Of a stretch of DNA of 64,000 nucleotides, positions 34,341 through 40,958 are shown piece by piece (the first letter of the stretch is position 1; every line of letters begins with the position of its first letter). The stretch lies in contig NZ_KB905900.1 in NCBI RefSeq assembly GCF_000381085.1, positions 118,744 to 182,743 of the forward strand, given 5' to 3'. Under the pieces are notes generated by a model. The model searched no databases and was not told where the DNA came from. It saw only the letters and a program-made list of their open reading frames with translations. The DNA comes from Thiomicrorhabdus arctica DSM 13458. Its GTDB lineage: Bacteria; Pseudomonadota; Gammaproteobacteria; Thiomicrospirales; Thiomicrospiraceae. Made by a program: the position numbers and the translations under genes.

Positions 34341-35891
34341 CTAATGCATAACCGGTAACTGCGCGGTAATTGCTTGATAATATGAGCTTGAATCCAATGG
34401 CTGAGCCCAGATTAAGCCCTGCCCTACCAAACATCCCATATTATGCAACAGAGCTGCTTGTGTTTGGTTTTCGATACCGGAGGCAATGACACACACATCT
34501 AACGTTTTCGCCATTTGAATGACCGCTTTTATCCATTTCTGACCACTGGTCGTTTCTAGAGCATCTTGCAGCCAAACACGATCGAGCTTGATCTCTTGTA
34601 CATTCAGGTTCATCAACTGCGCAAGATCCAGTGGGATCTTACCAACTTCTGTCAAAGTAATCTGGTAGCCAGCTTCACTCAATGCGTGTAGGGTATTTTG
34701 TAAATCGGCTTCGGTAATCGCTTGTAATGAAAATTCTAACTGCACTTGCGATGCTTTGACATTGAAAGATGCTAAACGATGGTTCATGAATTCAACCATG
34801 TTTTCGGTTTTCCAGACATTCTCCAGTACCGGAATTGAAATCACCAACTCATCATTCATCTGCTGCCACTGCTGGAGATAAAATAAGCCGCTATCAATTA
34901 ACCATGTCCCGACTGAACTCCCACACCCGCTCTGGTCAAGCTTATCCATCCAGCCTGGTAGATAAGGATTTTCAACTAATTCACTATGCCAAAGCGCACT
35001 GACACTTGCGCCGACAATTTGATGGCTTACTAAATCAATTTGCGGCTCAAAGCACACCTCTATCTCACCTGCGCTAATCGCGGCTTTTAGAGAAACAGCT
35101 AAATCAATCTCTTTAAGCTTCTGCTCTGCTTGTTCAGCAACATCAGAGTAGAAACGATAAGTACTACGCCCACTGGCTTTTGAAGCGTAAAGTGCTTTAT
35201 CAGAGTTCTCAACTAAATCCGCACAACTTTTTGCATCTTCAGGATAACGGGCCACACCGATACTGGTTGAAATCGCTACATCACTTTTATCAATCCAATA
35301 AGGACGACTGACTTCAAAAATAATACGCTTACAGATATTTTCAGTCATGTCACGATCAGACAGACCTGCTAATAAAATGACAAACTCATCCCCCCCCAAG
35401 CGACTAACGAGGTCACCTTCACGAACGGCCGAGATTAAACGAGCACTGACATTTCTCAACAATTCATCACCGGCATGGTGCCCTAAGGTATCATTGACGT
35501 TCTTAAAACCGTCTAAATCTAAAAACAATAACGTAAATTCAGTGTCGCTGTCTCTGGACTTTATGACTAGCTGCTCAAGCGTGCTGTGAAAATAAGAGCG
35601 ATTTGGTAAATGGGTTAAGGCATCGTAATTCGCTTGACGGAATAGCTCACGGGTGCGCATCACTACCTGAGCTTCCACCATCTCAGCAATTGCTTGCGGA
35701 ATATCACCCGTATCAGAGAAACGGTCTTGCAACACTCGGAGTATTTTTTTAACACCGAACCCAGCGGCCAGAGGTGATCTGTCAACCATCTTCTGAGTTC
35801 TAGAACGATCCGTTTGCAAAAAACGTTGTACTTCAGATGAAGTATCATTTTTTGTCATTGGCTTTTCAACAGTGTCTCTAAACTCTACCAT
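34341..35891 (-). CDS. Diguanylate cyclase with degenerate EAL domain
   Basis: A 516-residue cytoplasmic protein. The GGDEF motif (residues 166-170) is intact, and the inhibitory I-site RxxD (R157-D160) lies five residues before it, so c-di-GMP synthesis with feedback control is expected. In the following EAL domain the catalytic EALxR is replaced by SALWH (about 298-302), so phosphodiesterase activity is unlikely and that domain may only bind c-di-GMP or GTP. The N terminus (1-85) has no clear sensor domain. AAAGG eight bases upstream supports the start. Confidence 0.9.
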   Translation of the reverse strand: MVEFRDTVEKPMTKNDTSSEVQRFLQTDRSRTQKMVDRSPLAAGFGVKKILRVLQDRFSDTGDIPQAIAEMVEAQVVMRTRELFRQANYDALTHLPNRSYFHSTLEQLVIKSRDSDTEFTLLFLDLDGFKNVNDTLGHHAGDELLRNVSARLISAVREGDLVSRLGGDEFVILLAGLSDRDMTENICKRIIFEVSRPYWIDKSDVAISTSIGVARYPEDAKSCADLVENSDKALYASKASGRSTYRFYSDVAEQAEQKLKEIDLAVSLKAAISAGEIEVCFEPQIDLVSHQIVGASVSALWHSELVENPYLPGWMDKLDQSGCGSSVGTWLIDSGLFYLQQWQQMNDELVISIPVLENVWKTENMVEFMNHRLASFNVKASQVQLEFSLQAITEADLQNTLHALSEAGYQITLTEVGKIPLDLAQLMNLNVQEIKLDRVWLQDALETTSGQKWIKAVIQMAKTLDVCVIASGIENQTQAALLHNMGCLVGQGLIWAQPLDSSSYYQAITAQLPVMH

Positions 35892-37650: not shown

Positions 37651-38085
37651 ATGACTTTAAACAATACAACATCAGCAGAAGCAAAGGCTCCGATTCTTCA
37701 AGAATACAAAAGAAATCAAGAGTCTGAAAAACACCTTAAAGAGAACCCGCGTAAAACCATCCTACTCTTATTACAGGGTGCCGTAGACAAGGGTAATATG
37801 GCGAAAGTATGTCACCAAAGCCATGCTTTAGTAGAGAAGGGATTTCACCTGGGACGTATGACAACTATTTTGGATGCGTTACGTGACCGCTTATCAATGA
37901 CAAAAGAGACTCCCCTGGCATTTGATTTAGAGGAACTTTACCGTTATGCAGACCAAAGCATTCAAGAAGCCGTTTTTGAAAAAGATGCCTTCTATCTCGA
38001 CAGTGCTATTGAAATCCTAACGGAACTTCGCGATGCTTGGATGGAAATGATGCAGCAAACAGGACAGTTACACGATAATCAGTAA
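37651..38085 (+). CDS. fliS: Flagellin export chaperone FliS-like protein
   Basis: A 144-residue all-helical protein matching FliS: NPRKTILLLLQGAVDKGNMAKVCHQSHALVEKGFHLGRMTTILDALRDRL, then DLEELYRYADQSIQEAVFEKDAFYLDSAIEILTELRDAWMEM. FliS binds flagellin in the cytoplasm until export. No fliC, fliD or other flagellar gene is in the window, so this copy is an orphan; it is flanked by two c-di-GMP proteins. The N-terminal 30 residues are longer than usual. Confidence 0.82.
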   Translation: MTLNNTTSAEAKAPILQEYKRNQESEKHLKENPRKTILLLLQGAVDKGNMAKVCHQSHALVEKGFHLGRMTTILDALRDRLSMTKETPLAFDLEELYRYADQSIQEAVFEKDAFYLDSAIEILTELRDAWMEMMQQTGQLHDNQ

Positions 38086-38135
38086 TGTCCGCGAAAGGTT
38101 TAATATGGATGTGTAAGTCCATATCAATCACCCCC

Positions 38136-38165
38136 AAAAAAGCCGAGATCACTCTCGGCTTTTTT
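38136..38165. terminator. Bidirectional terminator between fliS and the EAL fusion gene
   Basis: AAAAAAGCCGAGA and TCTCGGCTTTTTT are perfectly complementary around TCAC, giving terminators for both convergent genes. Confidence 0.9.
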
Positions 38166-38212
38166 GTGCTCAACATCTCTTTCTTTACCAAAAAATAAAT
38201 ATTCAGCGCATT

Positions 38213-40516
38213 CTAACGGAAATGGGCACTGCCTAATAATGTCACATTGTGCAGAAATTGACGATTTTCTGGATCCCATGTCACTGGAGTTGACAACCCA
38301 ATATCGACACTGGACAAGCTTTCCAAAGCCTTGATTAAGTCCAATTTTCGATGCGTCGGACACTTATCAAGCCCCTTTAACAACACCAACGTGTTTAAAT
38401 AAGATTCAAAACTGATGCTATTACGGTATTTGGACGTACTTTCCGTTAAAAACGGTTTAATGTGTTTACGATATTGTGTTGCGGCCGATGACTTATCTTG
38501 ATAATCGTCGATGGGTGCAGTCACAAAGACATTTTGACAATTCTTAACATAACGCTTTAATGAACCCAATCCAATCAATGAAATCGAATAAAAATTGACT
38601 GGCTTCAAGCTCACATCGTTAATGATGTCGGCGAATGATTTTGTACCACCCACAAAAACGACATGCATGGCATTAGATTGGTTAATCGATTCAATCAAAA
38701 ATTTTTGACTGCGATGTTCAGAACCATAACTAAGGTGCTCGCTCCGTATCAATTTGTCAAAGACTACCGCACTGCGTTTACCAAATGCATTACCTGGGTA
38801 CACAAATAAAATTTTGCCACGCTTCTGAATCAGATGCTCGGCAATGCTCGCCAACTCATCTTCATAACTTGGACGGACATTAAAGAAGTTGCTCCACTTT
38901 GCATCTCGCAATAAATTACTCCCCGAAAAGGGTCCAATCACGGCTATTTTCATGGCTAATGCACTTTGAACAAACCATTTCATATTACCCAGTGTGAATA
39001 CCCCTCCCAAACAGGCGATGCTACGAGGTGAAATCTTCTTTTTAGCTAACTCCATATAATGGTTAATATCCGACTGATCATCAAACACTTCTAATTTAAT
39101 ACTGACACCAGAGGCGATTTTGTTGTCGTGATACTCTTTAAGTGCCGCATTAATACCATATAACTTACTATGACCTATAAAATTAAAGCCGCCCGTTAGC
39201 GGCAGGATTGAGCTGATAATAATTTGATTGTGTAATGTGTCATCATCATTATTGGATAAATCCTGAATTAAGGGAGTGGTGACTTGCAAACCTTCCAGCG
39301 AGGCATCGTTATCTTGACTACTGAACGTCGTATCAAGATCCAGACCCACACGTGCTGCTTTCAAAAAATCCAATAGACCCGGTTTTGAGAGAGGCTTACT
39401 GTACCAATAACCTTGAATAAGATCACAACCTTGGCCTATCAACCAATCCAGTACATCCTGATTCTCCACACCTTGAGCAACCACATCCAAACCTAAGTGA
39501 TGTGCTAATTCCATGGTATGTTTTACCAAAACATGCGACTTATCTTTCTCACCAATACTCTGGATAAACTCTCTGTGAATCTTGAGCTCAGTGGCCGGAA
39601 AGTACTTAAGGTTATCAAGTGAAGTACTGCCCTTGCCAAAATCATCAATTGAGATTTTAAAGCCTTTTAAGCGAATTCTTGCCAGCACATCCAAAGAGAC
39701 ACTTAAGTTCTGTAGTAAAATATCTTCAGTCACTTCGATAATGACGAAATTAGGGTTTATTTTATGCTCTGCAAAAATGGTTTCTAAGACATCAGGGAAG
39801 AAGAGATCATCTAAATCACGCGTTGATATATTAATGGAAATGGTCAGGCCATTATATTGCGCAGACAAGTCTGCATAATCTTGAGCGGCGATAATAGCCA
39901 CTGCCAAGGTCAACTCATGAATTAATCCTAAACGTTCAACCTCATCAATAAACTGATCTGGATAGATTAAATTGTTCTGGTTATCGCGAATACGGCATAA
40001 AGCTTCCAAACCAACAACGCGATTCATCTTGACGTCCAATTGCGGTTGATAATGAACCTCTACCCTGTCCTCATCAAACGCTTTACGAATATCATCTGAA
40101 CTCATTTGTCTTTGAGCGACAGGCTTATTTACCCACTGACTCTTCGCCTGTTCAACTCCGCTTATCAATGCCTCAATCGCCTTCTCTTTAAAAGGCTTAG
40201 AGAGGGGCGACATGGTATTGAGTTCATGTGCTTCGGCAAGTTCATGCGCGGTATTTAACACGGCCTTATCGCAACCACTCATTAACACCAAAGCAGCGCT
40301 TACTTTTTTCTCAGATAAAATACGCATCACCTGAATGCCATCTAAAAATGGCAAGCATAACTCTAAAAATATGAGGTCAAAAACCGTTGTTAATAAAGGT
40401 TCAACTTGTCTAGAATCGCTCTCTATCGTCACGTGATGACCTAAGCGGACTGCCACTTCTTGCAAATGGTCCGTTATGTCCGTATCAACATCTATTATCA
40501 AAATCTTTAATGGCAT
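38213..40516 (-). CDS. Receiver - EAL - periplasmic-binding-fold fusion protein
   Basis: A 767-residue protein with an unusual domain order and no signal peptide or membrane helix. Residues 1-120 are a receiver domain in which the phospho-acceptor Asp is Glu (E52, in LELCLP), though D9, D11 and K107 are kept. Residues 140-385 are an EAL domain with EALCR (171-175), N228, E260, D290-D291 and K311, but the catalytic Glu of EGVE is Gln (Q347 in AQGVE). Residues about 430-767 are a type 1 periplasmic-binding fold of the Leu/amide-binding family (SSILPLTGGFNFIGHSKLYG, VFDDQSD, GGVFTLGN). It probably binds a cytoplasmic ligand and c-di-GMP rather than degrading c-di-GMP. Confidence 0.88.
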   Translation of the reverse strand: MPLKILIIDVDTDITDHLQEVAVRLGHHVTIESDSRQVEPLLTTVFDLIFLELCLPFLDGIQVMRILSEKKVSAALVLMSGCDKAVLNTAHELAEAHELNTMSPLSKPFKEKAIEALISGVEQAKSQWVNKPVAQRQMSSDDIRKAFDEDRVEVHYQPQLDVKMNRVVGLEALCRIRDNQNNLIYPDQFIDEVERLGLIHELTLAVAIIAAQDYADLSAQYNGLTISINISTRDLDDLFFPDVLETIFAEHKINPNFVIIEVTEDILLQNLSVSLDVLARIRLKGFKISIDDFGKGSTSLDNLKYFPATELKIHREFIQSIGEKDKSHVLVKHTMELAHHLGLDVVAQGVENQDVLDWLIGQGCDLIQGYWYSKPLSKPGLLDFLKAARVGLDLDTTFSSQDNDASLEGLQVTTPLIQDLSNNDDDTLHNQIIISSILPLTGGFNFIGHSKLYGINAALKEYHDNKIASGVSIKLEVFDDQSDINHYMELAKKKISPRSIACLGGVFTLGNMKWFVQSALAMKIAVIGPFSGSNLLRDAKWSNFFNVRPSYEDELASIAEHLIQKRGKILFVYPGNAFGKRSAVVFDKLIRSEHLSYGSEHRSQKFLIESINQSNAMHVVFVGGTKSFADIINDVSLKPVNFYSISLIGLGSLKRYVKNCQNVFVTAPIDDYQDKSSAATQYRKHIKPFLTESTSKYRNSISFESYLNTLVLLKGLDKCPTHRKLDLIKALESLSSVDIGLSTPVTWDPENRQFLHNVTLLGSAHFR

Positions 40517-40958
40517 ACTTTAAATTCTCTTTTCATTCCGTTAGGCTAAAAACACCTAGTATCTAGCGTATTAAAAAGACTTTAAACTGAAATAAACGGC
40601 ACAGGTATTTTCAGCTTAAACCTACATCAAGCGGGTAAGTGTAGGTTAAGTAGGCCTCCAGACGAGTATACCTTTTCATAAAATGATTTCATGCATTTAA
40701 CCTCATCCAAATTAAACATGTATACATTAACTTAGCTTATATCAACAGGTGCATTTTGAAGATTTAAATTCAAAAAACCTGGTTTTAGTCCAAGACGATC
40801 AAATTAAAAAATTTCGTTTTAATCTAAAACAAAACCACTATCTAATTGATTTGTTACTATTTTATTAATCATGAACAAATCATGACTTATTTAGCACTCT
40901 CCTATAAAGAGTGCTAAAATAAGCTCATTGAAATAAAACATTATTGGAGTATTTTATA
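40517..40958. other. Divergent region between the EAL fusion gene and rpoH
   Basis: About 440 bases, AT-rich. The rpoH-proximal part contains a perfect CIRCE element (40891-40917) with a -10-like TATAAA inside its spacer. The rest shows nothing I can name. Confidence 0.6.
40891..40917. promoter_or_regulatory. CIRCE element (HrcA operator) upstream of rpoH
   Basis: TTAGCACTC (40891-40899), a nine-base spacer and GAGTGCTAA (40909-40917) match the CIRCE consensus exactly. HrcA binds it to repress heat-shock genes. It ends 41 bases before the rpoH start codon and its spacer contains a possible -10 (TATAAA). Confidence 0.93.

Follow-up and report, generated by a model that had tools for sequence, protein, structure and literature searches.

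The window analysed here, a 64,000-nucleotide stretch of the Thiomicrorhabdus arctica DSM 13458 genome, encodes a protein in which a receiver (REC), an EAL domain and a type 1 periplasmic-binding-protein (PBP) fold are joined in one chain. We propose that this protein is a former kinase-controlled c-di-GMP phosphodiesterase that has turned into a one-component, ligand-gated c-di-GMP receptor, a reading to which we give an even chance. The parts of the protein are already known from FimX, AmiC-AmiR and NasS-NasT. Our literature searches found no description of the REC-EAL-Peripla_BP_6 combination and none joining Thiomicrorhabdus with c-di-GMP; the one paper that came up for Peripla_BP_6 together with EAL is about electroactive respiration. 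The first-pass annotation had presented the fusion as an architecture not known to be characterised, in agreement with these searches. It does not stand alone, being a derived member of a small family with seven copies.

Pfam places all three domains above cut-off in the one chain (Response_reg, 35.6 bits, cut-off 30.2; EAL, 203.7 bits; Peripla_BP_6, 78.4 bits, cut-off 31.7), and the open reading frame is free of stops from end to end (Table 1). No membrane-type or signal segment was found in the 767 residues by a 19-residue Kyte-Doolittle scan, where the highest mean was 1.82; a related kinase reaches 2.71 in its first hydrophobic stretch. These data bear out the earlier description of a one-chain fusion without a signal peptide. 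Export of the PBP fold to the periplasm is contradicted by the lack of a membrane-type segment and by the position of the fold C-terminal to REC-EAL. We also considered that the C-terminal domain might be a separate protein, joined on paper through a missed frame break. This was ruled out, since six other copies have the same continuous architecture. Whole-chain AlphaFold2 modelling with seven homologues gave a mean pLDDT of 77.5 and a pTM of 0.46, with pLDDT below 50 at residues 129-135 and 389-428. Because the linker is predicted to be disordered and the whole-chain pTM is 0.46, the relative domain positions are undefined in the model, and no domain contact was seen.

Table 1. Features of the fusion gene and its locus; positions are those of the window, and residue numbers are those of the 767-aa protein.
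Feature	Position	Strand	Basis
767-aa REC-EAL-PBP protein	38213..40516	-	Single uninterrupted ORF
Receiver domain, residues 5-118	40163..40504	-	Pfam Response_reg; D9, V10, E52, S80, K107
V10 codon GTT, second acidic Mg-site position	40487..40489	-	Read in DNA; aligned columns
E52 codon GAG, phospho-acceptor position	40361..40363	-	Read in DNA; aligned columns
EAL domain, residues 141-375	39392..40096	-	Pfam EAL
H314 codon CAC; KID-motif Asp in the other six fusions	39575..39577	-	Read in DNA; aligned columns
Q348 codon CAA; AEGVE Glu in 4 of 6 other fusions	39473..39475	-	Read in DNA; 3sy8 alignment
Flexible linker, residues 387-432	39221..39358	-	pLDDT <50 over 389-428
PBP fold of type 1 (residues 434-760), predicted to be cytoplasmic	38237..39217	-	Pfam Peripla_BP_6, AF2 model, PDB matches
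Segment without counterpart in G014, between the fliS-like gene and rpoH	38223..40835 (approximate)	.	Comparison with G014
Terminator-like element between convergent genes: a perfect inverted repeat with A/T runs	38135..38166	.	

The receiver of the window copy keeps D9, S80 and K107. The second Mg-site Asp is replaced by V10, and E52 falls in the column that holds the phospho-Asp in five family members, so that the domain has neither a phosphorylatable Asp nor the second acidic Asp. Aligned columns and the codon agree on Glu at the phospho-acceptor position, as had been annotated, and a Pfam match with Glu at this position places the domain among Asp-less or pseudo-receivers. According to PMC4395418, Asp-less receivers most often have Glu in place of the acceptor (26%). 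An acceptor Glu is described as activating some receivers without phosphorylation and not others (PMC4395418, PMC12632262). The first reading had spoken of three altered residues: E52 and the Gln at the EAL base stand, the third was left unnamed, and we found two more, V10 and H314.

Rao et al. in 2008 are said to have identified E352 of RocR as the general base. The Gln at the corresponding position of the window EAL was correctly recognised at first pass, but it is residue 348, not 347: in the alignment with RocR chain 3sy8, which is gap-free from 148, residue 384 corresponds to chain position 388 and Q348 to the Glu of VEGVE. The window EAL keeps the EAL motif, Q157, R175, N229, E261, D291, D292, K312 and E351. 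By alignment Q157, R175, Q368 and G369, which we take to be the substrate contacts, are all present. With Q348 and H314 altered, the domain would count as a degenerate EAL, and the Gln at the base position may allow leftover hydrolysis. PMC7911125 assigns RocR E175 to catalysis, Q161 and R179 to substrate, and E175, N233, E265, D295, D296 and E352 to metal. The window copy keeps seven of these eight positions, including the EAL Glu and both DDFG Asp, and only E352 is changed.

A catalytically dead-looking EAL is ordinary on its own, because 5 of the 23 EAL rows in the window genome (26 rows minus three fragmentary ones) lack Glu at the base. Other EAL proteins of this genome also depart from the usual pattern. 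The GGDEF-EAL protein at 34341-35891 (minus strand) has a seemingly intact SRLGGDEF, no EAL motif, and ASGIE for AEGVE. At L136 (G000:C1:948500-951800) an EAL domain is divided between a 309-aa and a 113-aa frame, and the gene is probably broken. L052 1664-5761 (G000:C1) encodes a 1365-aa protein with PAS, HisKA, HATPase, two receivers, Hpt and EAL, the last with AEGVE kept, DGFG for DDFG and KLNH for KIDR.

We searched 62 genomes of the taxonomic family with the PBP part. Six were positive, including the window genome, with seven copies in total; the fusion occurs in 5 of 32 genus genomes and in G036, another genus of that family (genus and family as grouped by the search tool). The PBP part matched at E values of 1e-38 to 1e-46 for five copies and 4e-18 for that of G008. 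Identity of the six other fusions to the window copy is 32.5-39.2% in REC, 36.6-43.3% in EAL and 20.5-31.1% in PBP. Because there are six further copies in five genomes, we regard the fusion as a small protein family and not an artefact. A Pfam scan of all relatives but L042 placed Peripla_BP_6 (cut-off 31.7) above cut-off only in L039, at 31.6 bits in L043 and L051 and at 22.3 in L040, and did not list it in L041; the PBP homology of the relatives thus rests on direct matches to the window PBP part.

Within the samples and thresholds given here, wider searches found no other fusion. Among 40 loci taken from contigs, one was full-length (Thiomicrorhabdus sp. ZW0627; L071, taken as G026), L072 is a plain REC-EAL, and the other 38 matched the REC or EAL parts only. 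A PBP profile run against 369 class genomes at E<=1e-15 matched seven of them; outside the window genome, every match lay in a frame of 381-433 aa. A full-length profile (E<=1e-75) was applied to 369 genomes of the class and 398 of the phylum, in samples that overlap and with only two candidates per genome scored; its match extended to the PBP part only in the window genome. Five long REC-EAL frames contained no PBP by Pfam; their additions were PilZ, LuxR-type HTH, Hpt or extra receivers. Two such REC-EAL proteins are L174 1678-3975 (G526), with a C-terminal PilZ domain, and L176 2316-4079 (G739), with a C-terminal LuxR-type HTH. Plasmid matches came from 62 records, and the ten listed are ABC substrate-binding proteins with 23.6-24.6% identity. 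No viral contig matched patterns built from the single protein.

Another pairing of a binding protein with c-di-GMP domains was seen in the taxonomic family: a protein of ~720 aa with an N-terminal hydrophobic segment, encoded directly before an EAL gene (L120 3124-7564, L121 3431-7936, L123 2882-7325 and L125 3916-8366). In L120, the one locus given a full domain scan, Pfam found DctP and Peripla_BP_6 in the first protein and GGDEF-EAL in the second.

A single origin of the seven fusions was rejected on the REC-EAL tree (AU p=6e-5 against their grouping; p=1e-4 with three long rows removed and six fusions remaining). On this tree the PBP module has probably been acquired or lost on more than one occasion, with a minimum of three changes. 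We keep this claim modest because long branches are involved and the inner branches are mostly weak (4 of 13 starred). The branch of the window copy is itself long, at 1.33.

Five of the six other fusions lie directly after a hybrid histidine kinase (two in G026 and one each in G005, G029 and G036). By Pfam these kinases contain HK_sensor_dom_bact, PAS, HisKA, HATPase and a receiver, with dCache_1 below cut-off; HisKA is below cut-off in L039. At E<=1e-60, 11 such kinases were found in 7 of the 32 genus genomes, and by coordinates 10 of the 11 have a REC-EAL gene, whether PBP-bearing or plain, as a neighbour. The remaining one, L122 3846-6914 (G010), belongs to this type of hybrid kinase but has no neighbouring REC-EAL. 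There is no kinase among the ORFs neighbouring the window gene, and among the 25 of 54 candidates scored, the window genome yielded no family-type kinase at E<=1e-60. The sole such kinase found in G008 adjoins a plain REC-EAL, not the fusion. As far as we searched, the window and G008 fusions are orphans; a distant kinase could lie elsewhere in the window genome.

Position 52 is Asp in the five kinase-linked fusions and Glu in both orphans. The second acid is also lost in both orphans, to Val in the window copy and Asn in G008. The D52E change occurs in 2/2 orphan versus 0/5 kinase-linked fusions (Fisher p=0.048). Over 16 REC-EAL proteins it occurs in 2/3 that lack a kinase versus 0/13 that have one next to them or in the same chain (p=0.025); for the eight non-PBP rows, Pfam confirmed the kinase. 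With few cases and related rows, this association is suggestive only. All nine non-fused REC-EAL rows keep Asp, including L072, a MAG copy with no kinase seen beside it, so absence of a kinase does not by itself require loss of the Asp. At the EAL base the window copy has Gln, G008 has Lys and G036 has Ile, so that three of the seven fusions have lost it. The remaining four fusions and all nine non-fused rows have Glu there, although one of these nine, the kinase-fused REC-EAL L052, lacks other catalytic residues. EAL loss is not strictly coupled to kinase loss, because G036, with a dead-looking EAL, keeps both kinase and Asp.

The first-pass annotation had proposed that the protein is driven by a ligand instead of by phosphorylation. 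For the window copy this is supported, as an inference, by a receiver without the phospho-Asp, an EAL that lacks the base and keeps the substrate contacts, and a conserved PBP domain predicted to be cytoplasmic. The proposal does not extend to the family. Because the phospho-Asp is kept in five of the seven copies, each beside a hybrid kinase, the PBP domain is better seen as an additional input there, replacing phosphorylation at most in the two orphans.

Could the window protein still be an enzyme? It may be a slow EAL phosphodiesterase in which Glu52 mimics the phosphate and the PBP domain tunes activity. We consider this unlikely: although seven of the eight listed catalytic and binding positions remain, with the EAL Glu and both DDFG Asp among them, neither the base Glu nor the KID Asp is kept, and the base is Lys or Ile in two other fusions. 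That an acceptor Glu can activate some receivers in unphosphorylated form (PMC4395418) would fit an enzyme of this kind.

We modelled the PBP part alone with AF2 (pLDDT 85.2, pTM 0.85). Its best structural match was 4m88 (VIA Z 33.1, rmsd 3.1, 328 aligned), followed by 3lop (Z 32.4) and 4kv7 (Z 31.5), the last being nearest by sequence (profile E 5e-24). These nearest solved relatives are ABC-type substrate-binding proteins. AmiC structures (1qnl, 1pea and 1qo0) ranked below them (Z 27.4-27.5, 322-324 residues, rmsd 3.5-3.6), and AmiC was absent among the eight PDB sequence matches. Amino acids or amides had been suggested as the ligand, and the binding motif does not support this. We take Ser79 to be the ligand-binding Ser of the Leu/Ile/Val-binding protein; by our reading of the alignment, five of the seven copies have Pro in the equivalent column, while G036 has Ser and the window copy Thr.

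In the close pair G005/G029, dN/dS was 0.104 for REC, 0.106 for EAL, 0.098 for PBP and 0.541 for the linker. The comparison is restricted to this pair, the window copy's nearest full-length relative being too distant (35% identical). The PBP domain of this pair is under purifying selection equal to that on REC and EAL. Forty PBP residues are invariant across the five kinase-linked copies; 32 of them are present in the window copy and 28 in G008, and the domain appears to be without visible decay.

The fusion gene is flanked by purT, a fliS-like gene and rpoH. A fliS-like match was present in 31 other genomes, and we compared the locus in the 11 where it was best. Nine of these 11 have the fliS-like gene and rpoH at most 1.5 kb apart, with no fusion gene between them; in L155 and L157, rpoH lay outside the fetched flank. 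The nearest relative of those compared is G014 (purT 96% and rpoH 94% identical over the compared parts). Similarity to G014 ends near 38222, with a weak piece, and restarts near 40836, with ~170 G014-specific bases between. Because only 5 of 32 genus genomes have the fusion, a gain at the window locus is the simpler reading. The plasmid, viral and genome searches found no donor or close relative of the fusion gene. Its GC content is 0.402, versus 0.432 +/- 0.030 for 30 long frames of the window. As a mark of insertion we considered the sole short direct repeat at the borders, a 74% identical 23-nt pair (38014-38036 / 38210-38232), and rejected it as chance-level. Promoter-like sites were no more frequent than in shuffles (9 vs 9.8).

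The neighbouring genes gave observations of their own. The FliS-like protein (37651-38085, plus strand) has a match of at least 71% identity in 22 of 31 other genus genomes, and most have a more distant second copy. purT adjoins the FliS-like gene in 12 of 12 loci, the window's included. Just upstream of rpoH (40891-40917, plus strand) is a perfect TTAGCACTC-N9-GAGTGCTAA inverted repeat, for which shuffles gave 0 expected, and G014 has a repeat of this kind in its intergenic sequence too. Presumably the TTAGCACTC-N9-GAGTGCTAA repeat is a CIRCE/HrcA operator, in which case the heat-shock sigma factor would be under HrcA control.

A second alternative is that the gene is a decaying orphan response regulator, now functionless after loss of its kinase or transfer without one. 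The orphan state, the long branch, the several altered functional residues and the position of the gene, alone between genes that adjoin each other in 9 of 11 relatives, would fit such decay. We nevertheless hold it to be improbable, given an open frame of 2.3 kb without a stop, 32 of 40 conserved PBP residues in a domain predicted to be well folded, most EAL binding residues kept, and a second orphan with similar receiver changes. A c-di-GMP-independent scaffold, in which EAL and receiver serve only for protein contacts and the PBP domain reports its ligand to a partner, is very unlikely given the presumed substrate contacts kept in the window copy (Q157, R175, Q368 and G369), although the G008 copy has lost more EAL residues. 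Degenerate GGDEF-EAL proteins are described as having c-di-GMP-dependent or -independent functions (PMC4374697), in keeping with such a scaffold.

RocR and PvrR share the REC-EAL core of the window protein, with the receiver N-terminal and the EAL after it. Residues 46-384 are matched by RocR chain 3sy8 and residues 3-385 by the NCBIfam PvrR model, the latter with a score of 211.7 versus a cut-off of 580. Most members of the fusion family also have a RocR/PvrR-like two-component setting, next to a hybrid kinase. Unlike RocR and PvrR, the window copy has a C-terminal PBP domain and no phospho-Asp, base Glu or neighbouring kinase. FimX, a REC-PAS-GGDEF-EAL c-di-GMP receptor, offers a precedent for a receiver without its site and an EAL that only binds (PMC8389850). 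It differs in that the window protein has a PBP domain and no PAS or GGDEF, and its c-di-GMP binding is only predicted.

AmiC-AmiR and NasS-NasT appear analogous in that a binding-protein-type sensor acts on a receiver-like regulator. NasS is predicted to be cytoplasmic, NasS-NasT has been likened to AmiC-AmiR (PMC3795266), and AmiR is listed as Asp-less (PMC4395418). Those systems consist of two proteins and act by RNA antitermination, whereas the window protein is one chain with an EAL. RmcA and its kin share with it a PBP-clan sensor on a c-di-GMP protein. PMC8846402 calls the PBP-clan domains of c-di-GMP enzymes periplasmic and names SBP_bac_3 (RmcA) as the only one studied. The window sensor differs from the RmcA type in being Peripla_BP_6, C-terminal and predicted to be cytoplasmic.

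Our preferred reading, a ligand-gated c-di-GMP receptor derived from a kinase-controlled enzyme, can be set out as follows. In the family form, a membrane hybrid kinase would phosphorylate the receiver, and the EAL phosphodiesterase would receive a further input, from a small molecule, through the cytoplasmic PBP domain. The window copy would have lost the kinase, and its receiver, with a fixed Glu at the acceptor position, would be a scaffold or dimeriser held in one state. Having lost its base, the EAL would bind c-di-GMP and not cleave it. A ligand would close the flexibly linked C-terminal domain and so alter the binding of c-di-GMP or a partner by REC-EAL; we infer this gating, its direction and its output. 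Such gating may resemble the control of AmiR by AmiC, but within one molecule. Only the ligand input and the c-di-GMP binding surface seem still recognisable in the window copy, and its long branch also fits relaxed selection. The fuller history, in which a family with two inputs (a kinase and a cytoplasmic Venus-flytrap) has twice shed kinase and phospho-Asp to leave an internal metabolite gating a non-catalytic EAL, is one that we advance tentatively.

The control of pseudo-receivers has been said to "remain a mystery" (PMC12632262). Here a candidate ligand sensor sits in the same chain as a pseudo-receiver. Because one architecture occurs with and without the kinase, the phospho-Asp and the catalytic Glu, the replacement of phosphorylation becomes testable by comparison. 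If our reading is true, it would bring a cytoplasmic PBP-fold input into c-di-GMP signalling, where the 2022 review (PMC8846402) calls this clan periplasmic.
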